Source: an uncultured Arenicella sp. (GTDB lineage Bacteria; Pseudomonadota; Gammaproteobacteria; Arenicellales; Arenicellaceae). From it: 44,586 nucleotides of DNA. The position numbers were made by a program, and so were the translations under genes. The stretch lies in the NCBI GenBank assembly GCA_937989675.1, contig CALKRK010000155.1, forward strand, positions 1 to 44,586. Direction: 5' to 3'. This document shows, in pieces, positions 1,224 to 20,631 of the stretch (positions are counted from its first letter, which is position 1; every line of letters begins with the position of its first letter). Below the pieces are notes generated by a model, which did not search any database, was not told the DNA's origin, and saw nothing but the letters and a program-made list of their open reading frames with translations.

Positions 1224-3440
1224 TCAAAATGACTCGGTCATAAACACTTGGTCGATGAAAATATCAACGCCTGACCCGGGGCCTTGAAAATATAATCTCA
1301 ATGCACTTGCTGGGCAATTGGGCACGGTTATCGATCCAGAGAGTGTCGCCCAGCCGGTATTGACCGCCGACACACTGCCAATTGTTGGAAATTGATCTCC
1401 ACCTGGGCAAACTACTTGGAGGGTGGCTTGAACCGTTTCGGCCGAGGTGCTCACTCTAACTCGAGCGCTTAAAGAGTATGTTGAACCGGGTTGGAGTACA
1501 CCAACTAGGTCGATTGCTGGGCCTTCAAAGTTTTGGGTTCTCCCTGTCGTCTGCAAGCTTTGGCTGCCAGAAAAAGCCTGCGAGGTTGTTGTGGAGATTG
1601 TTGGTGAACCGAACCTAAACCAGCCAGAAGTGCCTGATTCAAAATCGGAATTACTGATCAGATTAGACAAAGCGGGGGCAACAACAACGGATACTTCGTC
1701 TAAATAGATATCCACTCCAGAACTCGGCCCTTCAAAGTAAAGACGATGAGCCGTTGCTCCGCAATTTGGAATCGTAATGGTACCGCTTAGTTCTTGCCAA
1801 GCTGTGTTATTCGCATCCACCCCAGCGGCTGTATTAAATTGGTCGCCGCCACTGCATGTGGATTGTACGGTGGCTCTGACCTCTTCAAATCCGTTATCGG
1901 AGGTGCGCACTCGAGCGCTTAAGCTATAACGGCCTCCGGGCTGCACGACGCTAAACAGATCTATTGCCGGACCTTCAAAAACTTGCGTGCGAGAACTGGC
2001 TAATAGGCTTTGCGTACCTGCAAACGCTTGTGTAGTGGTCACCTCTATAGAGGCATTGCCGAAAGCAAACCAACCACTGTCATTTTCTTCGAAGCCTGAG
2101 TTTTCTATAAGGTTTGGATCCACTGGTTCAGAGCTTGGAGCGGGGGCGTCGTCGGACAACAGCAATGTTAGCAGTGGACCAACGATAACCGGTTTTGTGT
2201 TTTCTCCGGGTTTGTATATTTTAAATTCACCCGATACGTGCAGCAAACCCAGCATATACAACATGCCGCTGTAGTAGCGAAATTCACCTGTTGGTACGTT
2301 TACATTCCAAAGGTCTTGGACAAAACGTGTTTTGTTTGGGCTTGATGCCGCAAGCGCGGCGACTGCGTTCATCGCCACATGGCCTTCTGTTCTGTAGGGT
2401 ACTTGCGGAACACCATTATGAGTGTAGACCGACACGTAGTTCCCTTTCGAGTTGTAGAAATTTAGAATTCTATTCGCTAGACCTACCGCACGGTTGTCCT
2501 TTTTGAACCACGCGTAGTCAAAGGCAACATTCTGGATTGTGCGCATTGCGTCGAACGCGGATAAATGACTGTTGGGGTTAAATGTGGTGAACTTTGGAGA
2601 TCCATCAAAATTTGCGTAGTCCGTATACAGGCCGGTAGTTGGGTGCGCCGCTGTTTGGAAAAAATCTCTACTTACTCGCGCTGCTGATCGCCAAAAGGCC
2701 TGATTTTTGTCGGCCCACAATGCCCACAATTCGTAAAAACCGGGTAGATGGTAGGATGGGTCGGTATATTGTTCCGAGCGAACGTCAGGTGTGAATACGA
2801 TTTGCTTATTAGTTGGATTAAACAGAGGGCCAACAGTGTTGTTAGGTCTTTTATTGACAATTTCATCCAGAATTAGATTGGCTTCTTTGGAGTAGTTAAA
2901 AATACCACTGCCATTTCCCCAGCGATTGGCGGCGAACATGAGTGCCATGGCAAAGTATGCCTCGCCATCTGGGGCCGGGTTTGGATCTATGGGGTTAAAC
3001 GGAGCCGTGGTTTCTAGTTGCCAGGAGAAATAATATTTGCGGTCGCCGCTTAAATGTTGCATCTCTGTTTTGGAGAATTTCCACAACTTATTAAACGTAC
3101 TTTTGTCGTTCATCATGATCGAAATCATCATGCCGTAAGACATGCCTTCAGAACGAATGTCATTTGAATCAATAGACTTAATAAAAGCTCTGTCAGACCC
3201 AACCGCGTACATGATTGACTGGTCGTTGGGGTTACCAAAGAATAATTGCTGATACGCTGCCTGCAACTTCTGTTTTACCGCGCTACTACTAGCGATATTC
3301 ATTTCTGCAAACAGGTTTCGGTGCTTGTCGCTCGTGAATGCACCTGTAGCACTGGCCACAGTACAATTAAAGATTAGTGCCACTAAGAAAGTGTTCAAAA
3401 ACACTTTTAAGAGATTCGTAATACCTAGATTGTTTTTCAT
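1224..3440 (-). CDS. Secreted GH8 xylanase (Rex-like) with two CBM22-like modules
   Basis: 738 residues: signal peptide (about 1-31, ending ASA), GH8 catalytic domain (about 35-410), linker, then two repeats of a ~145-residue beta-sandwich module (about 442-588 and 591-738). E98 in RSEGMSYGMM matches the GH8 general acid, and D297 in LSAFDAMRT is the likely base by spacing (199 residues apart, close to known GH8 xylanases). DPSYHLPGFYELWA is typical of reducing-end xylose-releasing exo-oligoxylanases, so this activity (EC 3.2.1.156) is more likely than cellulase. Both modules carry RTQ-x-FEGPAIDL and LYF(E/Q)GP-x-SGVDI-x-(L/I)D motifs and a conserved cysteine pair (529/560, 678/709), like CBM22 and related CBM4/9-fold modules. 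A secreted Rex with binding modules is unusual, since Rex enzymes are often cytoplasmic. An operator-like palindrome lies 224 bases upstream of the start. Confidence 0.93.
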   Translation of the reverse strand: MKNNLGITNLLKVFLNTFLVALIFNCTVASATGAFTSDKHRNLFAEMNIASSSAVKQKLQAAYQQLFFGNPNDQSIMYAVGSDRAFIKSIDSNDIRSEGMSYGMMISIMMNDKSTFNKLWKFSKTEMQHLSGDRKYYFSWQLETTAPFNPIDPNPAPDGEAYFAMALMFAANRWGNGSGIFNYSKEANLILDEIVNKRPNNTVGPLFNPTNKQIVFTPDVRSEQYTDPSYHLPGFYELWALWADKNQAFWRSAARVSRDFFQTAAHPTTGLYTDYANFDGSPKFTTFNPNSHLSAFDAMRTIQNVAFDYAWFKKDNRAVGLANRILNFYNSKGNYVSVYTHNGVPQVPYRTEGHVAMNAVAALAASSPNKTRFVQDLWNVNVPTGEFRYYSGMLYMLGLLHVSGEFKIYKPGENTKPVIVGPLLTLLLSDDAPAPSSEPVDPNLIENSGFEENDSGWFAFGNASIEVTTTQAFAGTQSLLASSRTQVFEGPAIDLFSVVQPGGRYSLSARVRTSDNGFEEVRATVQSTCSGGDQFNTAAGVDANNTAWQELSGTITIPNCGATAHRLYFEGPSSGVDIYLDEVSVVVAPALSNLISNSDFESGTSGWFRFGSPTISTTTSQAFSGSQSLQTTGRTQNFEGPAIDLVGVLQPGSTYSLSARVRVSTSAETVQATLQVVCPGGDQFPTIGSVSAVNTGWATLSGSITVPNCPASALRLYFQGPGSGVDIFIDQVFMTESF

Positions 3441-3856
3441 TTCTTATACCAGTTTCCCCTCTCGCTCATTATTAAGGCGATAGAACCTCCGGGCTGAAAC
3501 GGCACCAAACAACTCCCTTGCTTATATAGGTTTTTATCGACTAGGTATCGCGAGATTTTTCGAAGATGATTTATTTTGAGTACGTTTTTGCCCTCACTGC
3601 CACGGCTGGCATATTGACGGAATCGCCTCGCCTGATAGCAATGTCTAACGTATTATTATTACTTATAGTCATAATGACAATATAGAGATTAGATTATTAT
3701 ATTAGGATGGTCAAGCTGAATAGAGTGGAAACTCTGAGAGGGGGAAGGGCGAGCGATCTTGGGGCAAAGGAACCTCTGGTCAAGAAAGTCCTATCGATTG
3801 CTTAAGCGGTATCGCGATTAAATCTACCTCTGTCGACTAAGTTTAGTTTAGTGTTC
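3441..3856. other. Intergenic leader of the GH8 gene
   Basis: This region separates the GH8 start (3440) from the terminator of the transketolase gene. It holds the operator-like palindrome at 3664-3682. If the GH8 promoter lies at that site, the mRNA leader would be about 200 bases. I see no gene in it and no other convincing structure. Confidence 0.5.
3664..3682. promoter_or_regulatory. Operator-like palindrome A (GH8 gene)
   Basis: TATAGTCAT-A-ATGACAATA: one mismatch from the perfect 9+1+9 palindrome that recurs through the locus. It lies upstream of the GH8 gene, the only gene starting nearby. The minus strand offers TATAAG as a possible -10 overlapping the site, without a clear -35. Confidence 0.7.
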
Positions 3857-3893
3857 ATAAAAATCAGCCCACAACAACTTGTTGTGGGCTGAT
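3857..3893 (-). terminator. Rho-independent terminator of the transketolase gene
   Basis: ATCAGCCCACAACAA (3863-3877) is the exact reverse complement of 3879-3893, giving a very strong hairpin. On the minus strand the stem is followed directly by a TTTTT tract (plus-strand A-run 3859-3863). It begins 47 bases after the transketolase stop codon. Confidence 0.88.
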
Positions 3894-3939
3894 GCGTAGT
3901 AAGAAAGGCTACAAAATCAATTAATAAGGCCGGATCAAT

Positions 3940-5946
3940 TTACAACCAACCGCGGCTTGTTAGTTTCGCTATAACAGCGTCTGAAGTGATACCGAAGTGT
4001 TGGTAGAGTTCGTTTGCTGGGCCTGATTCTCCAAAGCTATGCATGCCGATGACTTCGCCATCTAGCCCGGTATACTTGTGCCAACCGTCCATGGATCCGG
4101 CTTCGATGGCCAAACGATGGTTAACGCTAGGCGGTAGAACTTGATCTTTGTAATCTTTAGATTGGGATTCGAATAGATCACAACATGGCATGCTTACAAC
4201 CCGAATACTAACATCGCTCGGCTGCAATTGATCAGCAACGGTTAATGCAATATTTAGCTCTGAACCTGTGGCGATTATTATTACATCGGGTTTTGATGTG
4301 CCTTCTCTCAGAACATAGCCACCACGCTCAATATTATTGATCTGTTCTTGGGTTCGTTCGACATGTGGCAAATTTTGGCGTGATAATACAAGCGATGTTG
4401 GTGTCTCCAGAGACAAGATCGCTTTTTTCCACGCGACAAAAGTTTCTACAGCATCGCCCGGTCTCCAGACCGACATATTTGGAATTAGTCTTAAACTTGC
4501 TGTGTGTTCAACCGGTTGATGTGTCGGGCCATCTTCACCTAAGCCAATGGAGTCATGTGTCAAAACATAGATCACAGGTTGTTTCATCAACGCTGACATA
4601 CGCATACCGTTGCGCATGTAATCGGAAAAAACTAAGAATGTGCCGTTGTAAACTCGATAGCCACCGTAGACAGACAGTCCATTCGATATCGCTGCCATAC
4701 CAAATTCTCTAACGCCGTAATGCAGATAGTTGCCAGCTTTGTCATCTTTACTGATGGGGCGTGAGTCACTCCAGATCGTATAGTTTGAGCCCGCTAAATC
4801 AGCTGATCCGCCTAACAATTCGGGTGTCAAAGGGCCAAATGCTTCTAAAGCCATTAGGCTTGCTTTACGGCTCGCCACGGTATGCTTGGCGCTATCACAT
4901 TGCTCAATCAATTGTTGAACCTTGTCGTGCCATAAGTGCGTATGGTTTCCACTCATCCGCCTAGCAAACTCCGCAGCTAGGTCAGGGTGTGCTTTTTCGT
5001 ACTCAGCAAACATATCGTTCCAATCCTGCTCGCATTGTTGCCCCTTGTTCTCAGCATTCCAAGCCTTTGCAACCTCGTCTGGAATGCTAAATTCGGGAGC
5101 TTGCCAACCAAGTTGCTCACGCACCAGTTTGATTTCATCGGTACCCAAAGGTGCACCATGGCAGGACTCAGTGCCTTGTTTCGAGGGCGATCCTTTGCCG
5201 ATGATCGTTTTACAGCAGATTAGGCTAGGTTTGTCTGTTTCTTGTTGGGCTTGAGTAATCGCATCAGAAATGGCGGCATGGTCGTGCCCATCAATGCCGC
5301 TCATTACATGCCAACCGTAAGCTTCAAATCTTGAAACGGTGTCATCTGTGAACCAACCTTCAACTTCGCCATCGATGGAAATACCGTTGTCATCCCAAAA
5401 CGCTATTAACTTGCCAAGACCAAGTGTCCCAGCGAGCGCACAAGCTTCGTGAGAAATGCCCTCCATCAAGCAACCATCACCCATAAATGCATAAGTGAAA
5501 TGGTCAATGATTTTCTGCTCGTCGGAATTGAATTGCGCGGCTAAATTAGCTTCTCCGATGGCCATACCAACTGCGTTCGCGATACCTTGTCCAAGCGGGC
5601 CGGTCGTGGTTTCGACACCAGGAGTGTAACCATACTCGGGGTGACCAGGAGTTTTGGAGTGTAGCTGGCGAAAGTTTTTAATTTCTTCTATTGGTAAATC
5701 GTAGCCGCTTAAATGCAGTAGGCTATAAAGCAACATGGAACCGTGGCCGTTTGACAACACAAAACGGTCGCGGTTGGCCCAATCAGGACTGTTGGGATTG
5801 TGCTTTAAGTGATCGCACCATAGCACTTGCGCGATATCGGCCATTCCCATCGGTGCGCCCGGATGCCCGCTATTGGCCGCTTGAACCGCGTCAGCGCTGA
5901 GTATTCGAATGGCATTCGCCATAGTCGATGGTGATATTACTGTCAT
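3940..5946 (-). CDS. tkt: Transketolase
   Basis: 668 residues, about the usual length (663 in E. coli TktA). Family hallmarks are in order: [12 protein letters not shown] near the N-terminus, the [13 protein letters not shown] region, the thiamine diphosphate motif beginning GDGCLMEG, and the C-terminal-half [12 protein letters not shown] motif. It transfers two-carbon ketol units between xylulose-5-phosphate and ribose-5-phosphate or erythrose-4-phosphate in the cytosolic pentose phosphate pathway. Operator-like palindrome B lies 42 bases upstream and a strong terminator follows, so it is probably a single-gene unit under the same control as xylan and xylose genes. This suggests a xylose-dedicated copy, with a housekeeping transketolase perhaps elsewhere; that cannot be tested from the window. 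Confidence 0.97.
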
Positions 5947-5987: not shown

Positions 5988-6010
5988 GTTATAGTAAAAA
6001 TGACTATAAC
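5988..6010. promoter_or_regulatory. Operator-like palindrome B (transketolase)
   Basis: GTTATAGTAAA-A-ATGACTATAAC, 23 bases with two mismatches between arms. It lies 42 bases upstream of the leftward transketolase start and 202 bases upstream of the rightward nucleoside-hydrolase-like gene, which has its own site C. On the minus strand TATAGT within it could serve as a -10. Confidence 0.75.
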
Positions 6011-6163: not shown

Positions 6164-6192
6164 CAATATATAGTCATAATGACTATATATTG
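6164..6192. promoter_or_regulatory. Operator-like palindrome C, perfect 29 bp (halogenase operon)
   Basis: CAATATATAGTCAT-A-ATGACTATATATTG: two 14-base arms that are exact reverse complements around one central base. It is the most perfect copy in the window. It ends 19 bases before the ATG at 6212, so a bound protein there would block transcription initiation or early elongation of the five-gene operon. Its position also argues against any start codon upstream of 6164. Confidence 0.85.
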
Positions 6193-6211
6193 TTTGGCTG
6201 ATATAAACATA

Positions 6212-7066
6212 ATGAAAATAATAATAACGACGCTTTTTAGCTTTTTTTTGTTGGTTTGCACTCATACTCAAGCCAAGTCTGAAAATGCGTTACTAGGCCG
6301 TACTGATCTGCCGAAGTTTTCGATTAAACAAGATTTGCTGTTGTTGAATTACGATTTAAAAACGGATGTGGACGATGTTCACACGGTTGCGGCAGCTTAT
6401 TCAATTTTCAAAAGTGAGCGCTTTAGGAATGTGAAAAGGCTTGCTGTAAGTGGTACGTATGGTGTGCAAGCGGGCTTGTATGTGCGAGCGGATTCGCTGT
6501 TCAATCTAGTCTATGGTGTTACTTGGCTCGATGCGCACCAAAGCCGTTTGATGTCTTTGAGACGTACAGTCGATGTTATTGAAACAACACTAAGTACAAA
6601 GGGGCGTGTGTGGGTAGCGGAAGCGGGTCAAAGCGATTTTACAGATGACGTTATTGTTGAGTTGAAGCGACGTAATATGGACTTCAATCGTTCTGATATC
6701 GTGGTAGTTCAACACAGTGAATGGAACGAAGGAGAGACCAGTAAAATGGCACTAGGACGAGTTAAAAGTGAGGCAACCTACGTCAAAATACCGGATGGTA
6801 ATCAAGCAGGAAACGGTTCTCCTGGGTTTAATGAGGCAAGTTACAAAATTTCAGACTTGATGGCCCGTGATGGATTAATGGGTAAGGTCTGGCTGGCGGC
6901 AAACGAAATTTCAAAAAAATACAACGGTGTGGATGGCCGCTATTTAAACAAAACAATTGATGAAGGCGGACTAGACTTTTCCGATTTATCCGAAGTCGTC
7001 TGGATTCTAAACATAGAAGGGGTTGAATCGCCAAATCGTTTTTTTGAAGTTTTCTCAAGCCAATAA
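6212..7066 (+). CDS. Exported nucleoside-hydrolase-like (DUF1593-type) protein
   Basis: 284 residues from the ATG at 6212. The frame is open further upstream, to an ATG at 6062, but that would run through palindrome C and displace the signal peptide, so 6212 is chosen. The N-terminus MKIIITTLFSFFLLVCTHTQA is a signal peptide. The early motif NYDLKTDVDDVHTVAA resembles the D-x-x-x-D-x-D-D calcium-binding start of inosine/uridine nucleoside hydrolases and of DUF1593 proteins. No second confirmed catalytic residue is claimed. It would act in the periplasm or outside the cell, with a glycosidic or glycan-related substrate as the likeliest idea. It is first in an operon with the halogenase 49 bases downstream. 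No strong ribosome-binding site is seen. Confidence 0.7.
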   Translation: MKIIITTLFSFFLLVCTHTQAKSENALLGRTDLPKFSIKQDLLLLNYDLKTDVDDVHTVAAAYSIFKSERFRNVKRLAVSGTYGVQAGLYVRADSLFNLVYGVTWLDAHQSRLMSLRRTVDVIETTLSTKGRVWVAEAGQSDFTDDVIVELKRRNMDFNRSDIVVVQHSEWNEGETSKMALGRVKSEATYVKIPDGNQAGNGSPGFNEASYKISDLMARDGLMGKVWLAANEISKKYNGVDGRYLNKTIDEGGLDFSDLSEVVWILNIEGVESPNRFFEVFSSQ

Positions 7067-7115
7067 CGATGCGACGGCCTCATTTTCTAAATTACATTGC
7101 GCGTGAACATCGACA

Positions 7116-8666
7116 ATGACTAATACATCAATTGTTCAAAGGGTTGCAATCGTTGGCGGAGGGAGCGCAGGTTGGATGACCGCAGCCGCGCTTACAGAGT
7201 TATTCAAAGACCTTCCGATTTCAATAAGTTTAATCGAATCAAACCAAGTTGGAACAGTCGGTGTGGGGGAGGCGACGCTACCTCACCTGCGTTTTTTCAA
7301 TCAAAGACTGGGTATAAACGAGCCTGAGTTTATGAAATTCGTCAATGCGACGTATAAATTAGGTATTGAGTTCGTTAACTGGGGCCAGATTGGCGATGCG
7401 TATATTCACCCATTTGGTGACTTTGGTGTGCCAGCAAATGGGGTTGATTTTCATCACTATTGGCTAAAAGCGAGAGCGATGGGGCTCGGCTCGCCGATTG
7501 GGCGATTTTCATTACCTGTTGTTGCAGCATTGGAGGAAAAGTTTGATTTTCCAAGATCGGATAGGAGCTCTTGGTTATCGACTTACTCCTATGCTTATCA
7601 TATTGACGCTGGTTTGTACGCTAAATACCTACGTGAATTTTCCGAGCAGCGTGGATTGATTCGTGTCGAAGGTTTGATCAACGACGTTGCTCTAAACCCC
7701 TGTACTGGCTTTGTTGAATCTGTCCGTATTGAAGGAGGGCAATCGGTCGAAGCTGATCTATTTATCGATTGCAGTGGCTTTAGAGGTTTGTTGATTGAGC
7801 AGGCACTCAAGACAGGCTACGAGCATTGGAATAAATGGTTACCTTGCGACCGGGCGATCGCAATTCCATCTGCTTCAAATTCTAGTCCGTTGCCGTACAC
7901 GCGGGCCACCGCGGATTCCGCCGGATGGCGATGGCGCATTCCTTTGCAGAACAGAGTTGGTAATGGACACGTCTATTGCAGCGACTATATCAGCGACGAT
8001 GATGCCGAAATGAAATTGCGAGATGGCCTAGACGGTGAAGCTTTAGCAAGTGCAAACAGATTACGATTTAACACCGGTCGGCGGCGAAAAATGTGGAACA
8101 AAAATGTCGTGGCTATTGGCCTTTCTGGTGGTTTTTTGGAGCCATTGGAGTCAACCGGAATTCACTTGATTCAATTGGCCATTATGAAACTTATAGAGTT
8201 TTTTCCAGATCGTGAAATGGAGCCTCAATATCAACGAGAATTTAACCGCTCTATGGATATGGAGATCAATCGAATTAAAAATTTTTTGATACTGCATTAC
8301 AACGCTACAGCGCGTGATGATACTGAATTCTGGCGATACGTACGCAGCATGTCTTTACCTACAGAACTCGAAGATAAAATTGAGTTGTTTAAAGAGACGG
8401 GTCATATGCTTGGTTATCGCGAAGGGCTGTTTTTGGAGCCGAGCTGGGTGGCAGTGTTTCTGGGCCAACGAGTATGGCCGAAAAGGTTGGACCCAAGGCT
8501 GGCAAAAATTAGTGAGGCTCAGCTATTGAGCAAACTTAACAAGCTAGAGAAAGCGATTAAAGACGATGTGGACGAGATGCCACTTCACGTCGAAGCGCTC
8601 GATGATATTGACAGTCAAGTCCGACAAGGCTGGCGAAAAACGGGGCTTAATCTGTATGGGCGCTAG
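7116..8666 (+). CDS. Flavin-dependent tryptophan-halogenase-family protein
   Basis: 516 residues with the complete family signature: FAD-binding GGGSAG (14-19), GEAT (51-54), the catalytic lysine position in ATYKLGIEF (K81, equivalent to K79 of PrnA/RebH), the W-x-W-x-I-P motif (271-276, WRWRIP) and a later FLEPLESTGIHLI segment. Known members use reduced FAD, chloride or bromide and oxygen to halogenate indoles or other electron-rich rings. No signal peptide is present, so it should be cytosolic. It is the second gene of the operon behind palindrome C and overlaps the next gene. Halogenase-like genes beside TonB receptors and carbohydrate enzymes are known in Proteobacteria, but their substrate is not established. 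No flavin reductase is encoded in the window. Confidence 0.93.
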   Translation: MTNTSIVQRVAIVGGGSAGWMTAAALTELFKDLPISISLIESNQVGTVGVGEATLPHLRFFNQRLGINEPEFMKFVNATYKLGIEFVNWGQIGDAYIHPFGDFGVPANGVDFHHYWLKARAMGLGSPIGRFSLPVVAALEEKFDFPRSDRSSWLSTYSYAYHIDAGLYAKYLREFSEQRGLIRVEGLINDVALNPCTGFVESVRIEGGQSVEADLFIDCSGFRGLLIEQALKTGYEHWNKWLPCDRAIAIPSASNSSPLPYTRATADSAGWRWRIPLQNRVGNGHVYCSDYISDDDAEMKLRDGLDGEALASANRLRFNTGRRRKMWNKNVVAIGLSGGFLEPLESTGIHLIQLAIMKLIEFFPDREMEPQYQREFNRSMDMEINRIKNFLILHYNATARDDTEFWRYVRSMSLPTELEDKIELFKETGHMLGYREGLFLEPSWVAVFLGQRVWPKRLDPRLAKISEAQLLSKLNKLEKAIKDDVDEMPLHVEALDDIDSQVRQGWRKTGLNLYGR

Positions 8667-10056
8667 CCGTATGCAAAATGGGGTACCGAGTTCAGTTGTT
8701 ATTGTTGGCAACGATATACAATCCTTGCTGACGGCTTGTTTATTTGCGCAATCACTAAAGGCGCACGGCACAAAAATAAAACTGGTTTCGTTGTCTTCGA
8801 GCCAGGAAACTGAGTCGAGCCATATCTTATGCGATGCTAATATTTTAGCCTCTTTATCCAGTTTAGGCTTGAGTCTGGTAAAACTCAAAAACACGCAGAG
8901 TATTCGTTTTCGCTACGGCAAGTATCTCTATTTTTCTGAGGTTGAAAATGGTTTTGTTTACACCCAATCGCCTCTGGGTAAGTTGATTGATCGAGTTCAT
9001 TTTCATCACTATTTGGCTCGTCATCGTCAAAGCGGAAGGTCGGTCGATACGGATCAATATTCAGTCGCAGCAACCGCGAGCAAAGAACAGAAATTCGTTT
9101 TTCCGGAAACTCAAAGTAATCGAGATTGGGCTGAGTTTACCGCGTCGATACCCAGCTCATTGTTGATCGAGTTTCTAGTTCATTGTGCAAACAAGTTCGA
9201 GGTCGCATTTATTGAGGCTTCCACTTTGGACGTTGTAATGGATTCACAATCAGAGCAAATCACGTCTTTGATTTTATCGTCACAGCGGCGTGTTAATGCC
9301 GAATTCTATATAGATTGCACGCCAGACGGGATATTACATCATAGAGTAGGAACTAAAAGTATTGTCACACAGCATGCGGGATCAGGTTCGATCAGACTTT
9401 CGATTCAATCCAATCAATGTGCAGAATCGTATCTCGATTCCCTAAGCATTGATAAGGCGGGCTTTGTTGTTTGTAGCGGTTCAACGGAACGCACTTATCA
9501 GCGGTCTGAATTAGACAGAGGTCAAGGCGAAGAACGTACACTCTTTTATCTTTCAAAGCCTTGGCAGGCCAATTGCTTGGCTATGGGCAAAGCACAGAGT
9601 TTCATACCTGAGACTCTGGTTCCCTTGCTAAATGCCACAATAGAGAGTGTCGCGCAGTTTCTCAATTTTTTACCTGATGATCCAAGCTCTTGGCCTTACC
9701 TTCAAAAGGCCTACAACCGCCAACAGAGTGAATACTATAAATGCCTGGTTGACGCACAATTATTTCCTCTTGCCGCTCGTGACTACCTTCTTGGTCAGAA
9801 AAAGTCAGATTACTTAACAAAACGTTTATTGCATCGATTTCAGCTTTTTCATCGTACCGGACAGTTTGCGTTTTACGAGCATGACGTTCTTGAAAAAGAT
9901 CAATGGTTTAACTTAATGCAGGGCGCTGGAATTTGGCCAGAGCGATATGATTCCTTGGTTAGAAAACTAGATAATCACGAACTGAATCAGATGTTAAAAA
10001 AACATCGTCGATCAGTGCGGGAGATGGTGGATTCGATTTCCAGAATGACGAGTTGA
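8656..10056 (+). CDS. Degenerate halogenase-like protein
   Basis: 466 residues from the ATG at 8656, which overlaps the end of the halogenase gene by 11 bases; ATG 8671 is an alternative. A start at 8566 would overlap by 101 bases and is disfavoured. The fold appears to follow the preceding halogenase: a Rossmann-like start (VVIVGNDIQSLLTA), an HFHHYLARH segment, and a C-terminal W-x-x-L-x-Q-x-x-x-x-W-P-x-R-x-D block matching the neighbour. Key residues are lost: GxGxxG is G-N-D-I-Q-S, no GEAT, no W-x-W-x-I-P, and the ESTG segment is replaced (FIPETLVPLLNAT). It therefore probably lacks halogenase activity and may be a partner or regulatory subunit of its neighbour. The frame is long and intact, so it is not a decaying pseudogene. 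Confidence 0.8.
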   Translation: MGASRMQNGVPSSVVIVGNDIQSLLTACLFAQSLKAHGTKIKLVSLSSSQETESSHILCDANILASLSSLGLSLVKLKNTQSIRFRYGKYLYFSEVENGFVYTQSPLGKLIDRVHFHHYLARHRQSGRSVDTDQYSVAATASKEQKFVFPETQSNRDWAEFTASIPSSLLIEFLVHCANKFEVAFIEASTLDVVMDSQSEQITSLILSSQRRVNAEFYIDCTPDGILHHRVGTKSIVTQHAGSGSIRLSIQSNQCAESYLDSLSIDKAGFVVCSGSTERTYQRSELDRGQGEERTLFYLSKPWQANCLAMGKAQSFIPETLVPLLNATIESVAQFLNFLPDDPSSWPYLQKAYNRQQSEYYKCLVDAQLFPLAARDYLLGQKKSDYLTKRLLHRFQLFHRTGQFAFYEHDVLEKDQWFNLMQGAGIWPERYDSLVRKLDNHELNQMLKKHRRSVREMVDSISRMTS

Positions 10057-10132
10057 GCACTAATTAGAGAGATTGCTTGTTTTGTCTAATTGCAGATTTA
10101 TTTTTGAATTAACAGTGAGGTAGCAACATTTA

Positions 10133-10591
10133 ATGAACATTTTAATAAAACCTATTTTGGCTTTTTGCAGCCTAATGCTTTTAAGTTCGGGTACGACAGT
10201 CGATGCAAACGAATTCGAACAAGAAATTGAAACCAAAGTTGTTTCAGCCGATCAAAGCCACATAACGCCCTATGAAGGCAGTCAGTTTAATACGTATTTT
10301 ATCGGCCAAACAGTAGGTACCAAAAATGCCATTGCTGGCGTAGCTACGATTGAACCTAATAATGAAATTCACCCCGCTCATGAGCATGAAGAAGAGGAGT
10401 ATCTGTTGATTCTAGAAGGCTCTGGAGAATGGGAGCTGGATGGAAAAAAGTTCTCTGCTAGCTCAGGAGATATGCTCTATGTAGCTCCAGGTATTAAACA
10501 TGGCCTATTCAACTCAGGTTCAACTGTGATGAAATTCGCAGTCTGGAAGTGGAGTAGCAAAGGAGATGTTACTTCCAAAGAGAGGAAGTAA
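10133..10591 (+). CDS. Exported single-domain cupin
   Basis: 152 residues with a signal peptide (about 1-25) and one cupin_2 barrel. The first cupin motif is visible as HPAHEHEEEEYLLILEGSG (metal-ligand pattern H-x-H and a following E), and the second as a GDMLYVAPGIKHG stretch with its histidine. Such small exported cupins bind a metal and often a sugar or carboxylate ligand; no reaction can be assigned. It lies 76 bases after the degenerate halogenase and 28 bases before the ThuA gene, in the same direction, so it probably belongs to the same operon. Confidence 0.85.
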   Translation: MNILIKPILAFCSLMLLSSGTTVDANEFEQEIETKVVSADQSHITPYEGSQFNTYFIGQTVGTKNAIAGVATIEPNNEIHPAHEHEEEEYLLILEGSGEWELDGKKFSASSGDMLYVAPGIKHGLFNSGSTVMKFAVWKWSSKGDVTSKERK

Positions 10592-10619
10592 GGTGCCCAA
10601 AAATAGAGGCTAGAACATT

Positions 10620-11396
10620 GTGAATCAAACGCGCTTTTACATTTTTTCTTTTTCGCTAATCCTTTTAGTTATTACATCTATTCAACCCGTGTCTGCCAAA
10701 CAGTTTAAAGTATTGCTATTCACCAAAACGACTGAGTGGCATCATGAATCGATCCTTGATGGCGTAACGGCCATGAGGAAACTTTCCCAAAAGCATCATT
10801 TTGACTTAGAGTGGCATGAAGACGCGACTCGAATTAATGCTGAGAATTTGGCTAACTTTGATGTAATTGTATTCTTATGCACTACTGGTCAAGTTCTAGA
10901 TAATGAACAACGCGAGTCTTTGAAAGGGTTCGTGCAGTCTGGCAAAGGTTTTGTTGGCGTTCACAGTGCTGCTGATACTGAGAGTCAGTGGCCATGGTAC
11001 GGAAAATTAATTGGTCGAAATTTTATTATTCATCCTCCAGTACAGACCGCGCCCGTTAAAGTTGAGCGCCGAGATTTTTATGGTTTAGAAGGGTTTCAGG
11101 ACACTTTTCTATGGACTGACGAATGGTATGACTTTGGCCCGGAAAATGTCTCCGGCCTCAACTATTTATTGTCTATCAATGAGCGCGATTACGACACTAA
11201 ATCTGATTGGGGAGATCGAAAAGGCAATGGAATGCGAGGCTTTCACCCTCTAGCTTGGTTTCATGAGTTCGATGGTGGGCGCTCGTTTTACACGTCTTTA
11301 GGTCATTTGCCCGAGTCATATCGTGACCAACGGTTCACCGAGCACTTGTACGGTGGAATTTTCTGGGCGGCAACGGGAAAACGTCCTCAGCCCTAG
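10620..11396 (+). CDS. Exported ThuA-domain protein
   Basis: 258 residues from a GTG start preceded by AGAGG ten bases upstream. A signal peptide (about 1-26, ending VSA) is followed by a ThuA / trehalose-utilisation fold, a class I glutamine-amidotransferase-like domain. Visible family motifs are KTTEWHHESILDG, the GFVGVHSAADTE strand-loop and a final HLYGGIFWA. Substrates of ThuA proteins are largely unknown; some act on keto-sugars. It is the last gene of the operon begun at 6212. Confidence 0.88.
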   Translation: MNQTRFYIFSFSLILLVITSIQPVSAKQFKVLLFTKTTEWHHESILDGVTAMRKLSQKHHFDLEWHEDATRINAENLANFDVIVFLCTTGQVLDNEQRESLKGFVQSGKGFVGVHSAADTESQWPWYGKLIGRNFIIHPPVQTAPVKVERRDFYGLEGFQDTFLWTDEWYDFGPENVSGLNYLLSINERDYDTKSDWGDRKGNGMRGFHPLAWFHEFDGGRSFYTSLGHLPESYRDQRFTEHLYGGIFWAATGKRPQP

Positions 11397-11740: not shown

Positions 11741-11768
11741 TTGATCATATAGTCATATGGACTATAAT
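11741..11768 (+). promoter_or_regulatory. Predicted sigma70-type promoter of the GH10 gene
   Basis: TTGATC (11741-11746) and a perfect TATAAT (11763-11768) are 16 bases apart. Palindrome D fills the space between them and overlaps the -10, the geometry of a repressor operator. The start codon lies 49 bases downstream of the -10. Confidence 0.6.
11748..11766. promoter_or_regulatory. Operator-like palindrome D (GH10 gene)
   Basis: TATAGTCAT-A-TGGACTATA, two mismatches between arms. It lies 51 bases upstream of the GH10 start and within the predicted promoter. Confidence 0.72.
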
Positions 11769-11817: not shown

Positions 11818-14800
11818 ATGTCCACAAAAATTGTTCTATTGATCGGCTTCATCGTGACGTTCTGCACGGGAACAACGGCCGCAACAGCATCACAGGAGGC
11901 GGCGTATCAAAGGGTGGGCGCTGAACATTTTAGTGCCTGGAATAATCCGCTGATCTGGAAGCGCTTCAAGCGTTATTTTGGATGGAAGCGGGTAGATTCA
12001 ATTGCGTCTGCGGCTGATCGCAGTGGCCGGCTGGCCGGCGCAGCGGTGAGTCAGGCACCATTTCAGGCAGACGAAGACTACCTGAATATATTGAACAAGG
12101 AGTTCAACTATATTACCCCGGAAAATGTCGCGAAGTGGGGCGAACTCCAACCAAATAACTCGAACGAGTGGAGTTTCGAAGCAACCGACGCGATGCTCGA
12201 AAGTAGCGAGCAAAACAATCAACTGTTTAAGGGGCATGCCCTAGTTTGGCACGTTCAGCTGCCTAGTTTTATTAATGATGATCTAACAGCCAACGAGCTG
12301 AAGGTTCTTACCGACACCCATATCACGACTGTCTTGAACCGCTACGCGGGCAGAATCTATTCGTGGGACGTTGTTAATGAGGCCATTTCTGACGGCGAAG
12401 AAGTGTATCGAGACTCAGTGTTTTTGAGCAAATTGGGAACTGATTTTATCGCGGACGCTTTCCACACAGCTAAAGCTGCCGACCCATTTGCGCAACTTTA
12501 CTACAATGACTATGGAATTGAGCGAATCAACACCAAATCAGATAAAGTTTACGCCGTTCTCAAAGAATTGGTTGAAGCTGGTGCACCAATAGATGGCATC
12601 GGTTTTCAAATGCACTTGGATGCAAACTTTGCACCCTCGGTAGACCAAATGGTGGAGAACTTTGAACGCTTTACCGCATTAGGGCTCACGGTAAATGTCA
12701 GCGAGCTCGACGTTCGCACTGCCAATTTACCTTGGGACAAAGCGACCAATTTGGCGATTCAAAAACAGGTGTATCATCGTGTTGTCGACGCGTGTATGCG
12801 AGTTCCCGATTGTGAAGGTGTGACTACATGGGGATTTACGGATAAACATTCCTGGATTGACTCGACCTTTGCGCCAGATGACCCACTTCAGTACGACGAA
12901 TCTTATGAGAGAAAGCCTGCGTATTACGGCATGGTAGACGGATTCTTAGGGCTTGACTCTGAACCATTGGGAACGTTACCAAACTTGATCGCAAACAGCA
13001 GCTTTGAGGTCGGAACGGATGGTTGGTTTGCCTCTGGCGGCGGTACCTTAAAAACAATACGCAGTCAGCGTGTTCATGGTCGCTACAGGCAGACTGGTAG
13101 TAGATCTTTACTGATTAAAAATCGGACTGAAACTTTTCATGGCCCAGCGTATGATTTATTAAGCGTGCTACGGCCTAATCAAACCTATGATGTGTCTTCA
13201 TTGGTAAGCATTAGAGGTACCCGGCGCGGTGCAATCAGTGCGTCTGTCCAACTTCAGTGCGTTGGTGAGGAGTCACAGTTTGTGCAAGCAGGTACAGTGA
13301 CTGCGAAAAAATGGAGATGGCGCGACCTAGAAGGTGAATTCACCACTCCTGATTGTGAGCTTGAGGTAGCGAATTTGTATTTCGAGAGCCCAATTACGCG
13401 CGCTAAGCTTATTTTAGACAACCCAGCGGTACGCGCTCGTGAGCTAGTCGTTGCACCAAACCCAAATTTAGGACCAAATGTTCTCACTAATGGCGGTTTT
13501 GAATCCGGCACGGATACTTGGTTTGGGTTTGATACAGCAACCGTAGAAACCAGCGATCAAGAACCTTTCGCAGGCCTTGCGGCTGGCTTTGCCACAAACC
13601 GAGTCGCGGAGTTTGACGGCTTTGCTACGAGCTTGCTTGGCTTAGTTGTTCCCGGAGAACAATACCAGTTAACTTCGCGAACTAAGGTCAGCGGTGTAAA
13701 CCAAGCGCAAGTCAAGGCAACGTTAAGAGCTGATTGCCCAACAGGACCTCAATTCTTGGGCATCGCTGGTGCAGTTGCAAATGAGCAAACTTGGTCTTTA
13801 CTAACCGGTACTATTCAGATCCCAAATTGTGAGGCGTCAGATTTAGTATTGTATTTTGAAGGCCCCGATGCTGCGGTTGATTTGCGTCTTGATGAAGTCT
13901 ATCTGCAACAAGACCTGACTGAACCTTCTTCTAATATCATTGGAAACTCTGATTTTGAAGGTAACGCGGATGGCTGGTTTGCATTTGGTAGTGCCTTTCT
14001 CTCAACGACTTCAGAATTCGCATATCAGGGTTCTCAAAGTTTATTGGCGACAAACCGTACGCAGAATTTTGAAGGTCCTGCAATCGGCTTGGGTAACGTT
14101 CTGATCCCGGGTGAAGCATACAGCTTTACCGGTTTTACTCGTATAAGAAATGCCGCGTCGGCTGAGGTGCGTGCTACTCTTCAACTTAAGTGTGCGAGTG
14201 ATGTTGCAGAGCAGTATCTAGGTGTTGCGAGCACCACAGCAAACGAATTAGATTGGTCTGAATTGGCGGGCAGTGTTGTAATTCCCGCGTGCGAAATCGA
14301 GTACGCGAACCTATTTGTAGAAGGCCCTGATTCAGGAATCGATATTGCTATTGATGCGTTGACAATGGAAGTGGACTCGGGTGGCAACCCACCAGTAGGT
14401 GGCAATTTGGTTGGGAATTCTGGCTTTGAAGAAGGCGCTACAGCACCGTGGTTTGGTTTTGGCGGCGCTCTAATTGAAGTGACAACAGCGCAGGCATTTG
14501 CTGGTCAGTTCAGCTTGATTGCGACAAACCGAACTCAGAGCTTTGAAGGCCCGGCTGTAGATTTAGTTGGAGTGGTCACTGGAGGAGAAACCTATAGTGT
14601 TGGCGCTCAAGTCAGAGTGAGTGGTTCAAACAGTGCACCTGTCTCCGCTACCGTACAAACAGTGTGTGCCGATGGTTCTGAGGAGTTCAGCGGCACGGCC
14701 AGCGTTACCGCGACAGATTCACAGTGGACAGCCTTGTCGGGTGAGATAACCCTACCCAGTTGCGACGCTACGGCTCAGCGCTTGTACTTTCAAGGGGCTG

Positions 14801-15306
14801 ATGCGGGAGTTGATATACTGATTGATGAGGTACAAGTATCGCTTGTCGTTGCGAGTAGCAATTTAGTTTTGAATGGCGATTTTGAAAATGGCACTGACAA
14901 CTGGTTTGGTTTCGGAGGGGCCGTTTTGGCAACTGTAGATCAAGATCCTCACGAAGGTCTCTTAAGCCTTATTGCAACCAACAGGACTGCTGGGTTTGAA
15001 GGGCCTGCGACTGACTTAATAGGCCGTGTAGACCCAGCATCAACTTACAGCATCAGTGCTCAGCTCAAAGTTTCAGGTATAGACATGGCCGACGTAAGCG
15101 CTACCATCCAAACCGTTTGTGAGGATGGAACTGAACAGTTTAATGGTACGGGTTCAGTCAGTGCGAGCAATTCAAATTGGATTGCCTTGTCTGGTGATAT
15201 AACCTTACCTGATTGCGCAGCTACGGCTCAGCGGCTCTATTTTCAGGGCCCTGATGGTGGCATAGATATCTTATTAGATTCAGTCGAAGTCGTATTGGCT
15301 CAGTAA
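11818..15306 (+). CDS. Secreted GH10 endo-xylanase with five C-terminal CBM22-like modules
   Basis: 1162 residues: signal peptide (about 1-24), GH10 domain (about 60-380), then five tandem beta-sandwich modules (about 388-540, 552-698, 705-852, 862-1010, 1013-1162). The catalytic acid/base is E188 in WDVVNEAI and the nucleophile E296 in VSELDVR. Modules share the NRT-x-x-FEGPA-x-DL and LYF-x-GP-x-x-x-(V/I)D-I motifs with the two modules of the GH8 enzyme, and each has a cysteine pair (481/513, 640/671, 792/825, 950/982, 1101/1133) likely to form a disulphide. The first module is the most diverged. CBM22 modules are more usual N-terminal to GH10; five C-terminal copies are notable. It would cut xylan backbone outside the cell. 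Confidence 0.96.
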   Translation: MSTKIVLLIGFIVTFCTGTTAATASQEAAYQRVGAEHFSAWNNPLIWKRFKRYFGWKRVDSIASAADRSGRLAGAAVSQAPFQADEDYLNILNKEFNYITPENVAKWGELQPNNSNEWSFEATDAMLESSEQNNQLFKGHALVWHVQLPSFINDDLTANELKVLTDTHITTVLNRYAGRIYSWDVVNEAISDGEEVYRDSVFLSKLGTDFIADAFHTAKAADPFAQLYYNDYGIERINTKSDKVYAVLKELVEAGAPIDGIGFQMHLDANFAPSVDQMVENFERFTALGLTVNVSELDVRTANLPWDKATNLAIQKQVYHRVVDACMRVPDCEGVTTWGFTDKHSWIDSTFAPDDPLQYDESYERKPAYYGMVDGFLGLDSEPLGTLPNLIANSSFEVGTDGWFASGGGTLKTIRSQRVHGRYRQTGSRSLLIKNRTETFHGPAYDLLSVLRPNQTYDVSSLVSIRGTRRGAISASVQLQCVGEESQFVQAGTVTAKKWRWRDLEGEFTTPDCELEVANLYFESPITRAKLILDNPAVRARELVVAPNPNLGPNVLTNGGFESGTDTWFGFDTATVETSDQEPFAGLAAGFATNRVAEFDGFATSLLGLVVPGEQYQLTSRTKVSGVNQAQVKATLRADCPTGPQFLGIAGAVANEQTWSLLTGTIQIPNCEASDLVLYFEGPDAAVDLRLDEVYLQQDLTEPSSNIIGNSDFEGNADGWFAFGSAFLSTTSEFAYQGSQSLLATNRTQNFEGPAIGLGNVLIPGEAYSFTGFTRIRNAASAEVRATLQLKCASDVAEQYLGVASTTANELDWSELAGSVVIPACEIEYANLFVEGPDSGIDIAIDALTMEVDSGGNPPVGGNLVGNSGFEEGATAPWFGFGGALIEVTTAQAFAGQFSLIATNRTQSFEGPAVDLVGVVTGGETYSVGAQVRVSGSNSAPVSATVQTVCADGSEEFSGTASVTATDSQWTALSGEITLPSCDATAQRLYFQGADAGVDILIDEVQVSLVVASSNLVLNGDFENGTDNWFGFGGAVLATVDQDPHEGLLSLIATNRTAGFEGPATDLIGRVDPASTYSISAQLKVSGIDMADVSATIQTVCEDGTEQFNGTGSVSASNSNWIALSGDITLPDCAATAQRLYFQGPDGGIDILLDSVEVVLAQ

Positions 15307-16028: not shown

Positions 16029-17462
16029 TTACGTTGACGCTCTGGATTGTATCTCTTTTTGAATCTGAATGAGCCTGCTGCTCGTTAAGCTATACAAAAA
16101 GCAGCATACTAATACTGCAAAACATACGCCTGCTGGGATGATTGATAGAATAAGAGAAATCCCGTTTAAGGCACTTTCAGGCTGGACCTGCTCTACCTTG
16201 TCGATAGGCTCCGCATACTCGAATAGAGTCAGTAATTTTCCTAAGAGAAATCCTCCAATGGCTGCCCCGAACTTTAGCGCAAATAAGTGGCCTGAGAAGG
16301 TCATTGCTGTTGCACGGGAGCCGTTGACATACTCTCCCCAATCGACTGTATCAGCGGTCATCGCAAAGACTAATACAATCATCATTATGTGAAAGTAGCC
16401 CCCAAGCGTGTTTAATATTATCGCCATCCAAAGCATATCGCTTTGGACGAAATACAGGCCAATTGACGTGACGATAAAGCACAGTGCGGCAAACTTCATG
16501 ATTACGGTTTTACACAAAGTTCTCGTTAGAAATATAGTCGTGATGGCGCCAACGATGGAGCCCAATGTACCTACGGTCATGATTGCTGTCCCGAGGCTAT
16601 TGGGGTTACATGCGTCATAACTGACCAGCAATAAATCGATTGTTTCGCCATTTGAACAAGATAAAAAGTACTTTGCGTAATACATGACTATGCCGCCACG
16701 TAATACGGCGATAACCAGTAGAAAAAACGTGGCGACAGCTACGATCGCCCATTCTCGATTACTCTTTAGTAAAACCCAAAAGTCGGAAAATATTCCTTTA
16801 ATGGAATCAAGAATTGTTGATTCGTTCCTAGATTCTTCGCTTTCTAGGCGTTCCTTTGTAGAAATAAAACACAAAAAGAAACATATAAGTGCTACGACCG
16901 ATAGCACCATCATTGCGTAAGTGAAGCCGGTTTGGTCATTTCCATTCCCCAAACGTTCAACTAACGAGAGTAGAGTGGCACTAACAATAAAGTTTCCTAC
17001 CATGGCCATGGCAAAACGGTAGCCTTGAATTTCACCTCGCTCGTTCGGGTCGGCTGTCATTACCCCTCCTAAGGCGCCATAGGGAATATTGATAGCGGTA
17101 TAGGCTGCACGGAGCAATATATGCGTTACATAGGCGTATATTATTTTTTGAGGTACTGTTAAATCGGGAGTGGTGAAAGCCAATACGGCGAAGATGCCAT
17201 ACGGTATGGCCATCCAAATCAGGTAAGGACGATATTTTCCCCATCGGGTTCTCGTTCTGTCAGCTATACCCCCCATAATCGGGTCAGTAACCATATCAAA
17301 GAGGGTGACGACTAACATTAGTGTTCCTGCCACGGCCGCCGTTATACCAAAAACATCGGTATAGAAATACATGGCGAAACTCATAACAACCTGCCAAACA
17401 ATGTTGCTGGCGGTATCCCCGAACCCGTAACCCATCTTCTCCTGTATTGATAATCTAATCAT
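16029..17462 (-). CDS. GPH-family sugar:cation symporter (xylose or xyloside)
   Basis: 477 residues with about twelve hydrophobic segments, an inner-membrane protein. The N-terminal KMGYGFGDTASNIVW and the following TDPIMGGIADRTRTRWGKYRPY loop are signatures of the glycoside-pentoside-hexuronide (MFS_2) family, which includes XynT/XylP- and MelB-type transporters. It diverges from xylB, with operator-like palindrome E in the shared 197-base intergenic region, so the natural substrate is xylose or short xylosides. The exact sugar and the coupling ion cannot be read from the sequence. Confidence 0.92.
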   Translation of the reverse strand: MIRLSIQEKMGYGFGDTASNIVWQVVMSFAMYFYTDVFGITAAVAGTLMLVVTLFDMVTDPIMGGIADRTRTRWGKYRPYLIWMAIPYGIFAVLAFTTPDLTVPQKIIYAYVTHILLRAAYTAINIPYGALGGVMTADPNERGEIQGYRFAMAMVGNFIVSATLLSLVERLGNGNDQTGFTYAMMVLSVVALICFFLCFISTKERLESEESRNESTILDSIKGIFSDFWVLLKSNREWAIVAVATFFLLVIAVLRGGIVMYYAKYFLSCSNGETIDLLLVSYDACNPNSLGTAIMTVGTLGSIVGAITTIFLTRTLCKTVIMKFAALCFIVTSIGLYFVQSDMLWMAIILNTLGGYFHIMMIVLVFAMTADTVDWGEYVNGSRATAMTFSGHLFALKFGAAIGGFLLGKLLTLFEYAEPIDKVEQVQPESALNGISLILSIIPAGVCFAVLVCCFLYSLTSSRLIQIQKEIQSRAST

Positions 17463-17546: not shown

Positions 17547-17575
17547 TTGACCACAATATATCATATATTCAAAAT
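17547..17575 (+). promoter_or_regulatory. Possible promoter for xylB-xylA-Nudix
   Basis: TTGACC (17547-17552) and CAAAAT (17570-17575) are 17 bases apart and overlap palindrome E. The -10 is a 4/6 match, so this is a weak prediction. On the opposite strand TATAGT inside the palindrome could serve as the -10 of the transporter gene. Confidence 0.35.
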
Positions 17576-17592
17576 GACTATATGATATATTG
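17554..17592. promoter_or_regulatory. Operator-like palindrome E (transporter / xylB divergent promoter)
   Basis: CAATATATCATATA (17554-17567) and TATATGATATATTG (17579-17592) are exact reverse complements around an 11-base centre, and the core 17564-17582 follows the common pattern (TATATTCAA-A-ATGACTATA). It lies 91 bases from the transporter start and 67 bases from the xylB start, suitable for controlling both. Confidence 0.78.
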
Positions 17593-17659
17593 TCGACACA
17601 ATTAACATGGTTGGCGATGATTTCACTTCAACCTACATAGCTATTACTACTTACTATAG

Positions 17660-19147
17660 ATGAAAACGACTTTGGGAATCGATTTAGGAACGCAATCAGT
17701 AAAGGTTTTGTTTTATGACTATGCACGCAAGAAAACTATTGCGTCCGCGTCGTCCCCGTTAAATTTGTATCAAGATGATTGTGGGTCAGCGGAGCAACAA
17801 ACCCATTGGTGGACCAAAGCTCTGCGAGATGCGCTTTCACAGGTGCCTAAAGATATTCTTTCATCTACACAAGCAATAAGCGTTTCGGGCCAACAACACG
17901 GCTTTGTTCCGATTGATCAACATGGTCAATCGCTGGCACCGGTCAAGCTCTGGTGTGATACATCGACGGAGCTTGAATGTCGCGAGATTACTGAGCGACT
18001 AGGCGGAGAAACGGCCACTTTCGAAGCAACTGGAAATAAGTTAGTTACAGGTTATACGGCTTCTAAAATTTTGTCGTTTAAAAAGCGTTATAGTCAATTT
18101 TACAGTCAACTCGATACCATTTTGTTACCCCATGACTACTTAAATTTTTGGTTAACTGGTGAGAGGGTCATGGAGATGGGAGATGCCTCTGGTACCGGCT
18201 TCTTGGATGTGAAAAACCGCAAATGGTCTGATCAAGCATTGCAGGCAATAGACCCTGATCGCAATCTCAAAGACTGTTTGCCCACACTCGTACAAAATAA
18301 CCAGATAATTGGTCGAGTTACCGAGTTTGCCGCGGGTAAGACAGGTCTACCAGAAGGAACGCCCGTGGCTATCGGGGGTGGCGACAATATGATGGGAGCA
18401 ATCGGTACTGGGAACATAGCGCAAGGTAAGGTTACGATGAGCTTAGGCACATCTGGAACGGTATATGCTTATTCAGACACTCCAATCGTTGACCCAGCCG
18501 GCGAAATCGCCGCATTTTGCTCATCGACCGGCGGATGGCTGCCTCTGCTTTGCACAATGAACTGCACCGTTACGACCGAGCTTTTTAGACAACTCCTAGA
18601 CGTGAGTATCAGCCAATTTGACGAAGTCGTATCGTTGGCACCAGCTGGTTCAGATGGCGTGATAACCGTCCCGTTTTTTAATGGCGAGCGAACTCCAGAT
18701 CTGCCGAATGCAAAGGGCTGTGTTTACGGCGTAAGCAGTCAAAACTGTACTCGAGAACATCTGATGCGCTCTGGCGTAGAGGGTGCCACATTTGCACTGA
18801 AATCGGGTGTGGATAAATTGAGTTTGTTGGGATTAAAGCCAGAAGAAATAACCTTAACGGGTGGTGGCACACGTAGCCAACAATGGCGGCAGATAGTAGC
18901 TGATGTTATTGGCTTACCGGTGTTTATTTTAAAGCAGGACGAAGGAGCGGCGTTTGGAGCGGCACTACAAGCATTGGAAGTGCTTGATCAAGGGCAGGGC
19001 AGTTCCAGCTCGGATTTTTATTCTGAATATTATGACATAGATGAAGAACGTAGCTGTGAACCGAACGCTGTGTCGCAAGCAACGTATAAAGAAGCATACG
19101 AACATTATCAAGAGGCCGTCGCATCGGTCGCAACAGTTTATAAGTAA
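17660..19147 (+). CDS. xylB: Xylulokinase
   Basis: 495 residues of the FGGY carbohydrate kinase family. The N-terminal phosphate-binding motif is [29 protein letters not shown] and a C-terminal [19 protein letters not shown] segment are the characteristic FGGY nucleotide-binding signatures, and [11 protein letters not shown] near residue 75 matches the sugar-binding region of xylulokinases. It phosphorylates D-xylulose to xylulose-5-phosphate in the cytosol. It precedes xylA by 23 bases and is divergent from the sugar symporter, a standard xylose operon layout. Confidence 0.97.
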
Positions 19148-19170
19148 AATATATTTTTGAGGAAATACAC

Positions 19171-20566: not shown

Positions 20567-20631
20567 ATATCTAGGATACTGTGCTATCCTCGACCCCTAG
20601 ATTTGTTAATCTCTATTCTAGGTTCCCCTCC

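Follow-up and report, generated by a model that had tools for sequence, protein, structure and literature searches.

A flavin-dependent halogenase and an apparently dead partner in the xylan/xylose regulon of an uncultured Arenicella, and their association with one clade of TonB-dependent receptors

Why should a flavin-dependent halogenase be found behind the most perfect operator of a xylan/xylose regulon? This question is raised by positions 6164 to 11396 of a 44,586-nucleotide stretch, referred to here as the window, which is contig CALKRK010000155.1 (C155) of the assembly GCA_937989675.1 (G000; genome of 3.58 Mb, 80% complete) of an uncultured Arenicella sp. The original prediction described a five-gene operon at this place and read it as one accessory system of xylan use. 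The results presented below point elsewhere, as the halogenase (HalA) and the halogenase-like protein encoded behind it (HalB) very probably form a module with a TonB-dependent receptor, and the receptor gene of the window lies ~20 kb away from them. The elements in question are the following.

6164 to 6192, operator of the operon, a perfect 29-base palindrome found by palindrome and pattern scans
6212 to 7066, plus strand, gene1, an exported protein with a DxDD-like motif (seen by eye)
7116 to 8666, plus strand, HalA, a flavin-dependent halogenase
8656 to 10056, plus strand, HalB, read as a pseudo-halogenase
10133 to 10591, plus strand, an exported Cupin_2 protein (Pfam E 3e-15)
10620 to 11396, plus strand, an exported ThuA-domain protein (Pfam E 3e-65), whose ortholog in the xylan locus of genome G005 has its own operator
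31792 to 34812, plus strand, a TonB-dependent receptor (TIGR01782) of the clade that accompanies HalA-HalB

The five genes of the operon are collinear, with gaps of 49, -11, 76 and 28 bp, and the next gene (11818) is under its own operator at 11748. The most likely start of gene1 is the ATG at 6212, a longer open reading frame (ORF) from 6062 being one that would include the operator. The palindrome itself is made of two 14-nt arms, 100% complementary, on either side of a 1-nt spacer and is, as had been claimed, the best of the seven operators in the window; another palindrome, at 17548-17598, has longer but imperfect arms (24 nt, 88%). The operator core, TATAGTCATNATGACTATA, is matched seven times in the window at up to 3 mismatches versus 0.01 expected, and eight times in the whole genome versus once for the reversed control pattern, the eighth match carrying 3 mismatches and lying on another contig. 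Among all these matches the site at 6169 is alone in having 0 mismatches. Furthermore, each of the seven window operators is intergenic and 5' of a gene. The operon is part of this regulon, as originally predicted.

Judged by its sequence, HalA carries all the residues of a working halogenase. Its match to PF04820 (E 4e-184, 613 bits for a cut-off of 21) extends over positions 1-456 of the 458 of the profile, which bears out the earlier assignment to the tryptophan-halogenase family, and the signatures are complete with GGGSAG at 14-19, Lys81, WRWRIP at 271-276 and Glu345. Lys81 and Glu345, placed by motif, are the residues that we take to be catalytic by analogy with PrnA. The closest solved structures are 6frl (BrvH; HalA residues 7-500, E 4.5e-142), 9luq and 6y1w (Xcc4156; residues 5-495, E 1.7e-132). 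By score the nearest is of the BrvH type, with an alignment reaching residue 500, an open active site being a property described for these relatives. In an alignment of 78 halogenase proteins longer than 430 aa, all 72 non-HalB copies keep Lys and Glu and 71 keep GxGxxG, the remaining one being truncated at the motif, while WxWxIP is strict in 46 of the 72 and replaced by WxWxIG or WxWxIA in 26. At the Fx.Px.Sx.G site the seven HalA copies from HalA-HalB loci have Gly without departure, and among the 62 copies to which the best hit gave the label HC, the residue is Ser in 31, Ala in 29 and Gly in 2.

HalB was originally described as a degenerate halogenase. It is indeed a divergent match to PF04820 (E 1.5e-28, 100 bits): GxGxxG, WxWxIP and Glu are lost in the six complete HalB copies and Lys in four of them, and the window copy lacks all four elements. 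Random decay, on the other hand, is not what is observed, as the HalB copies are intact ORFs that form one clade (support 1.0); by this comparison HalB is a conserved dead partner. Conservation among these copies falls to its minimum, 0.20, around WxWxIP and peaks at 0.43 in a C-terminal stretch and at 0.41 in residues 61-130, and HalA and HalC, a protein often encoded next to the pair, score from 0.66 to 0.83 throughout. Given this pattern, we read HalB as a pseudoenzyme that keeps a putative binding surface. The predicted structure of HalB is poor, with a mean predicted local distance difference test (pLDDT) score of 48. HalB-type genes were found in 6 of the 18 genomes of the genus, at seven loci, one of the HalB genes being cut by a contig end. 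A HalB profile, built from the same HalB genes that it then scored, exceeded 600 bits solely in the three Arenicella-genus genomes among the 274 genomes drawn from the class, all others giving 302 bits or less.

The context of these genes is where the receptor comes in. In the six HalA-HalB loci outside the window, all of them from the Arenicella group, the order is receptor-HalA-HalB, and HalC is found behind HalB in the five where the contig continues. Receptors of the same clade are present at seven of the seven HalA-HalB loci. The window is the one locus of the seven in which the pair is ~20 kb from the receptor, and there the operator is found on both. This sharing of an operator by a receptor and a pair that have become separated is the strongest hint of a joint function. 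The receptor, named in the original prediction as one possible target among others, is the best-supported partner. In a tree of 78 receptors, the window receptor and that of the G005 xylan locus form the sister group to the receptors of the HalA-HalB-HalC cassettes. This set holds the receptors longer than 820 aa from the fetched loci, with duplicates removed; receptors at unfetched places, among them G003:C126:10424, G006:C158 and G010:C235, are outside it. For 37 receptor-halogenase pairs the two sets of distances are correlated (r 0.665, with 0 of 2000 permutations above 0.200). The cassette also adjoins genes of other glycoside hydrolase families, GH97 and GH94 at one locus (L043) and GH3 at another (L044). 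The place of the pair beside one type of receptor in the relatives suggests that HalA-HalB is there for the receptor and not for the sugar.

The association extends to the halogenases of the genus in general. Within the genus 48 halogenase loci were read (the window, 7 and 40 others), strong PF04820 matches on G006:C82, G006:C84, G007:C27, G012:C24, G012:C222 and G017:C122, together with weak matches, being outside this count. A TIGR01782-like receptor is located at most three ORFs from the halogenase in 37 of the 48 and is directly adjacent in 34, and two further loci have another kind of TonB receptor directly 5' of the halogenase. No TonB receptor was found within five ORFs, in the stretch fetched, at the nine remaining loci, which are the window, L048 (at a contig end), L122, L125, L130, L131, L134, L135 and L139; at L134 and L135 one lies ~8-9 kb off. 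Within three ORFs a SapC-family gene is present in 22 of the 48 loci, the family being assigned by a Pfam check on one clustered member, and a JmjC-type gene in 13. Outside the genus, a TIGR01782-like receptor is at most three ORFs away in four of eight loci; among the others, L232 has an 848-aa TonB-receptor-like protein (by eye) three ORFs off, two have none and one is truncated.

Several observations on these cassettes can be added. The arrangement receptor-halogenase-SapC-JmjC-halogenase recurs at L103-L113, L126 and L232, in many Arenicella genomes, with L107 and L111 differing, and often includes another JmjC gene, encoded on the other strand; it is also present in a genome from outside the order, there without a directly adjoining receptor. 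The HalA-HalB-HalC cassettes of L041 and L044 have Gfo/Idh/MocA genes in their vicinity, and in both cases also a large protein, of the same family, which in L041 contains kelch repeats and DUF5060 and Collagen_bind_2 domains.

The remaining operators and the genes of the regulon, the latter named through family searches, are listed here.

3664 to 3682, operator upstream of a GH8-CBM4_9 gene (1224-3440, minus strand)
5990 to 6008, operator upstream of a transketolase gene (3940-5946, minus strand)
11748 to 11766, operator upstream of a GH10 xylanase gene with five CBM4_9 stretches (11818-15306)
17564 to 17582, operator between a GPH-family sugar symporter gene (16029-17462, minus strand) and xylB (17660)
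17660 to 20517, plus strand, xylB (xylulokinase) and xylA (xylose isomerase)
20581 to 21297, plus strand, a regulator with Nudix, NrtR_WHD and AraR_C domains, candidate binder of the operators
31593 to 31611, operator with 3 mismatches, between a transaldolase gene (minus strand) and the TonB receptor gene (plus strand)
31684 to 31702, operator with 1 mismatch, ~90 bases 5' of the TonB receptor gene
35000 to 36028, plus strand, a Cupin_8/JmjC-type protein directly 3' of the receptor, likewise placed in the G005 xylan locus
36049 to 38904, plus strand, GH10 and GH43 genes of the xylan locus

With a TIGR01782 receptor, two GH10 genes, GH43, GH8, xylA, xylB and seven operators, the window contains a xylan-type TonB-receptor carbohydrate regulon. 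The operators are likely bound by the Nudix regulator that adjoins xylA, which is of the NrtR/AraR type (NrtR_WHD 1.9e-25, AraR_C 1.4e-13, NUDIX 7.9e-12). It was also considered as an ADP-ribose-responsive NrtR equivalog and rejected as such, with 132.7 bits for a cut-off of 400 bits in NF050029. The Bacteroides regulators AraR (BT0354) and XylR (BT0791) resemble it in combining a Nudix domain with an NrtR_WHD/AraR_C winged helix and in having their gene beside xylA, and arabinose releases BtAraR from DNA (PMC4666351). They are reported there in Bacteroidetes alone, whereas the window regulator is gammaproteobacterial. A scan for promoters and terminators was uninformative, with 8 promoter-like sites versus 11.4 in shuffles and 8 terminator-like ones versus 5.3. 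The sole further operator-like site, at 4981-4999 of L205 (G000:C267), is just 5' of a GH3-like gene (2445-4802, minus strand; named by eye), and similar GH3-like genes adjoin a Nudix regulator in L202 and L204. A second Nudix regulator of the same assembly, 60% identical to the first, is at a contig end (G000:C151:7394-8068).

Related xylan loci were compared with that of the window. G005, a genome of the same genus (99% complete), has an orthologous locus with ThuA, symporter, xylB, xylA, Nudix regulator, GH43, GH10, JmjC, receptor and transaldolase genes; its regulator is 69% and its receptor 78% (1742 bits) identical to those of the window. Four operators are found in its 55 kb (none in 60 Markov-resampled sequences), 5' of ThuA, between the symporter and xylB, 5' of the receptor and 5' of the transaldolase. 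No halogenase, gene1 or cupin was found in this locus, and its contig is free of PF04820 matches, HalA-HalB-HalC being elsewhere in that genome (L044). As gene1-HalA-HalB-cupin is missing there, it was either gained in the window lineage or lost in G005, ThuA being common to both. Nudix regulators 58-60% identical are encoded near xylA in G007, G014 and G002, beside related palindromes of the form TATATTCA-N3-TGAMTATA, matched with up to 4 mismatches and without a chance control, which precede xylA in L202 and xylB in L204 and, in L203, fall at the beginning of the xylB ORF; the operator is therefore tied to this regulator family. No halogenase was found in a more distant xylan-type locus, that of G763, where a 37%-identical receptor has two GH10 genes within ~11 kb. 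The stretch around a 35%-identical receptor in G120 contained neither a halogenase nor a xylan gene that could be recognised. By these comparisons the regulon predates the operon. The idea of the five genes as one conserved xylan unit had to be rejected, since the halogenase block is missing at the G005 and G763 loci, the two others that were examined, and of the five genes ThuA alone is found in the G005 locus. Such an absence had been named in the original prediction as refuting it.

Gene1 is a rare addition, as is the cupin. The proposed resemblance of gene1 to nucleoside hydrolases could not be retained, no match being found in Pfam to E=10, in NCBIfam to 0.01 or among solved structures to 0.1, and its predicted model is unusable (mean pLDDT 37). 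Its homologs are on contig C193 of its own genome (33-36% identical over the domain) and in two gammaproteobacterial genomes of the 398 in a draw from the phylum; among 145 relatives only its own genome gave a match, and none was found in viral contigs. In G553 one copy is two genes from a halogenase and adjoins a sulfatase, a TonB-receptor barrel being nearby, and the other copy adjoins GH43 and an enolase-superfamily gene. A paralog of 611 aa, L042:8348-10183, has a long C-terminal extension without a Pfam match. Both the cupin and the ThuA assignments hold, and besides itself the cupin has one homolog (46%) among the 18 genus genomes, at an unrelated G005 locus. The N-terminal signal peptides of gene1, the cupin and the ThuA protein were judged by eye only.

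Taking these results together, it is quite possible, short of probable, that the HalA-HalB pair of the xylan/xylose regulon is the halogenase half of a receptor cassette, displaced from its former place, and works there as follows, the substrate of HalA (the receptor or another protein), the role of HalB and induction by pentose being what we infer. A pentose signal would relieve the Nudix regulator, upon which the receptor, the JmjC-type protein, HalA and HalB would be produced together. HalA would then halogenate an aromatic side chain of a protein, using reduced flavin, oxygen and bromide or chloride, with HalB as a non-catalytic partner holding the substrate or HalA. The most likely target would be the receptor while it is still nascent and cytoplasmic, prior to its export, although that the receptor itself is the substrate is, taken alone, doubtful. 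ThuA, and possibly gene1 and the cupin, may act separately on periplasmic sugars. In its boldest form, which we consider unlikely, the proposal is that Arenicella halogenates its own carbohydrate receptors, HalA and an obligate dead partner brominating or chlorinating conserved aromatic residues of nascent TonB receptors, with Trp320, Trp515 and Trp522 as candidates, and a JmjC-type oxygenase, produced alongside, adding further modifications. Were this true, the halogenase-SapC-JmjC-receptor cassettes would be receptor-maturation systems, and the lack of a known substrate for the BrvH and Xcc4156 enzymes would be explained. To our knowledge, halogenation of an outer-membrane receptor would, if real, add a new type to the protein modifications of bacteria.

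Several results weigh against the proposal of a receptor modified by HalA. The correlation of distances reflects co-inheritance and not a common reaction. The orthologous xylan receptor of G005 has a JmjC gene and no halogenase in its locus, so that xylan uptake needs no local halogenase. A residue modified by HalA would be expected to be conserved. The window receptor shares Trp320, Trp515 and Trp522 with six of the six cassette receptors, and none of the 70 receptors that fall outside the clade has them; as they also occur in the xylan receptor of G005, linked and unlinked receptors cannot be told apart by them. Trp content is nearly equal, 0.89% in linked and 0.84% in unlinked receptors, as labelled by the author of the analysis, who called L159, L181 and L182 linked from position. 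A search for Trp, Tyr, Phe or His residues by which receptors linked to a halogenase differ from the G005 receptor gave Phe577 and Phe941 only. Because G005 has HalA-HalB-HalC elsewhere in its genome, the Trp test speaks neither for nor against receptor modification. Finally, the tree was undecided on whether the window HalA is inside or outside the cassette HalA group (approximately unbiased test, p 0.07, 0.27 and 0.38), and it allows the window HalA to be either old or recently transferred.

Other explanations of the operon have to be weighed as well. As the original prediction mainly proposed, HalA could halogenate a small aromatic compound taken up via the receptor, such as an indole signal or a phenolic ester derived from the xylan of plants or algae, with the exported partners handling the product. 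BrvH does brominate free indole in vitro (PMC5945002) and a Rieske ring-hydroxylating oxygenase is encoded downstream at 39200. However, the GH97, GH94 and GH3 enzymes next to the same cassette have substrates in which aromatics need not be present, and no product-handling gene conserved with HalA-HalB was present in the loci read; we find this explanation rather doubtful. It is also unlikely that gene1-HalA-HalB-cupin is a recent passenger, drifting under a strong operator without a xylan function. The absence of the block from the G005 and G763 loci would fit this, as would the long branches of the window HalA and HalB and the appearance of the window HalB, which looks more degenerate than the other five complete copies, with an alignment gap across the WxWxIP region and Lys lost too. 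Yet every ORF is intact behind the most perfect operator of the regulon, no signature residue is missing from HalA, and the regulon has a receptor of the clade that accompanies HalA-HalB. Least of all do we expect HalA-HalB to be a flavin oxidase or monooxygenase making peroxide or hypohalite, or tailoring a sugar or cofactor, without cellular halogenation: HalB-type proteins show the fold to be reusable without halogenation, and BrvH and Xcc4156 have no known native substrate (PMC7336383), but the Lys and Glu required by halogenases are kept in HalA and in all 72 non-HalB copies aligned, and model substrates are brominated by BrvH and Xcc4156 (PMC5945002, PMC7336383).

Returning to HalA-HalB as a receptor module, the known systems give it both precedent and contrast. 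BrvH (Brevundimonas, 6frl) and Xcc4156 (Xanthomonas, 6y1w) have the same signature motifs as HalA; they brominate indoles and not free tryptophan, their active site is open, a peptide substrate has been proposed for enzymes of their type and the native substrates of that type are unknown (PMC5945002, PMC7336383). Another halogenase gene, 42.7% identical, is located upstream of brvH (PMC5945002). HalA, whose halogenation is predicted from sequence, differs from both in having the dead HalB behind it and in its site residue, Gly instead of Ser in BrvH and Asn in Xcc4156 (PMC7336383). The free-tryptophan halogenases PrnA, RebH and PyrH have the PF04820 fold family and the catalytic residues in common with HalA, the PrnA and RebH alignments ending at HalA residue 426. 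MibH-like and marine halogenases of ribosomally synthesized and post-translationally modified peptides (RiPPs) are a precedent for halogenation of peptidyl Trp (PMC10286304, PMC7336383), and the match of HalA to MibH (5uao; E 1.5e-59) is much weaker than that to BrvH. The carbohydrate utilization (CUT) loci of Xanthomonas, which include a probable xylan locus, bring together a TonB receptor, degradative enzymes and a transporter as does the window (PMC1790865). In the window a halogenase operon shares the operator, whereas the word 'halogenase' is absent from the main text of that article. A halogenase-receptor association or a dead partner was not found among the open-access papers listed by the literature searches, judged mostly by title and the start of the abstract. 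The new elements here are the dead but conserved partner and the pairing with a receptor, BrvH-type halogenases being already known. Together with the split operons under one operator, the pairing of receptor and halogenase clades and the dead partner make the question of the BrvH/Xcc4156 substrate tractable.

Two further features of the window were noted. The minus-strand genes at 21900-30322 encode a 2-hydroxyacid dehydrogenase, a kelch protein, an aldehyde dehydrogenase, a FAH-like protein, an IlvD/Edd-like dehydratase and Pgi, and this block resembles a second, oxidative sugar-acid pathway alongside the xylose isomerase pathway. The Rieske oxygenase gene (39200-40342) lies on the margin of the xylan locus, and no fitting operator precedes it.

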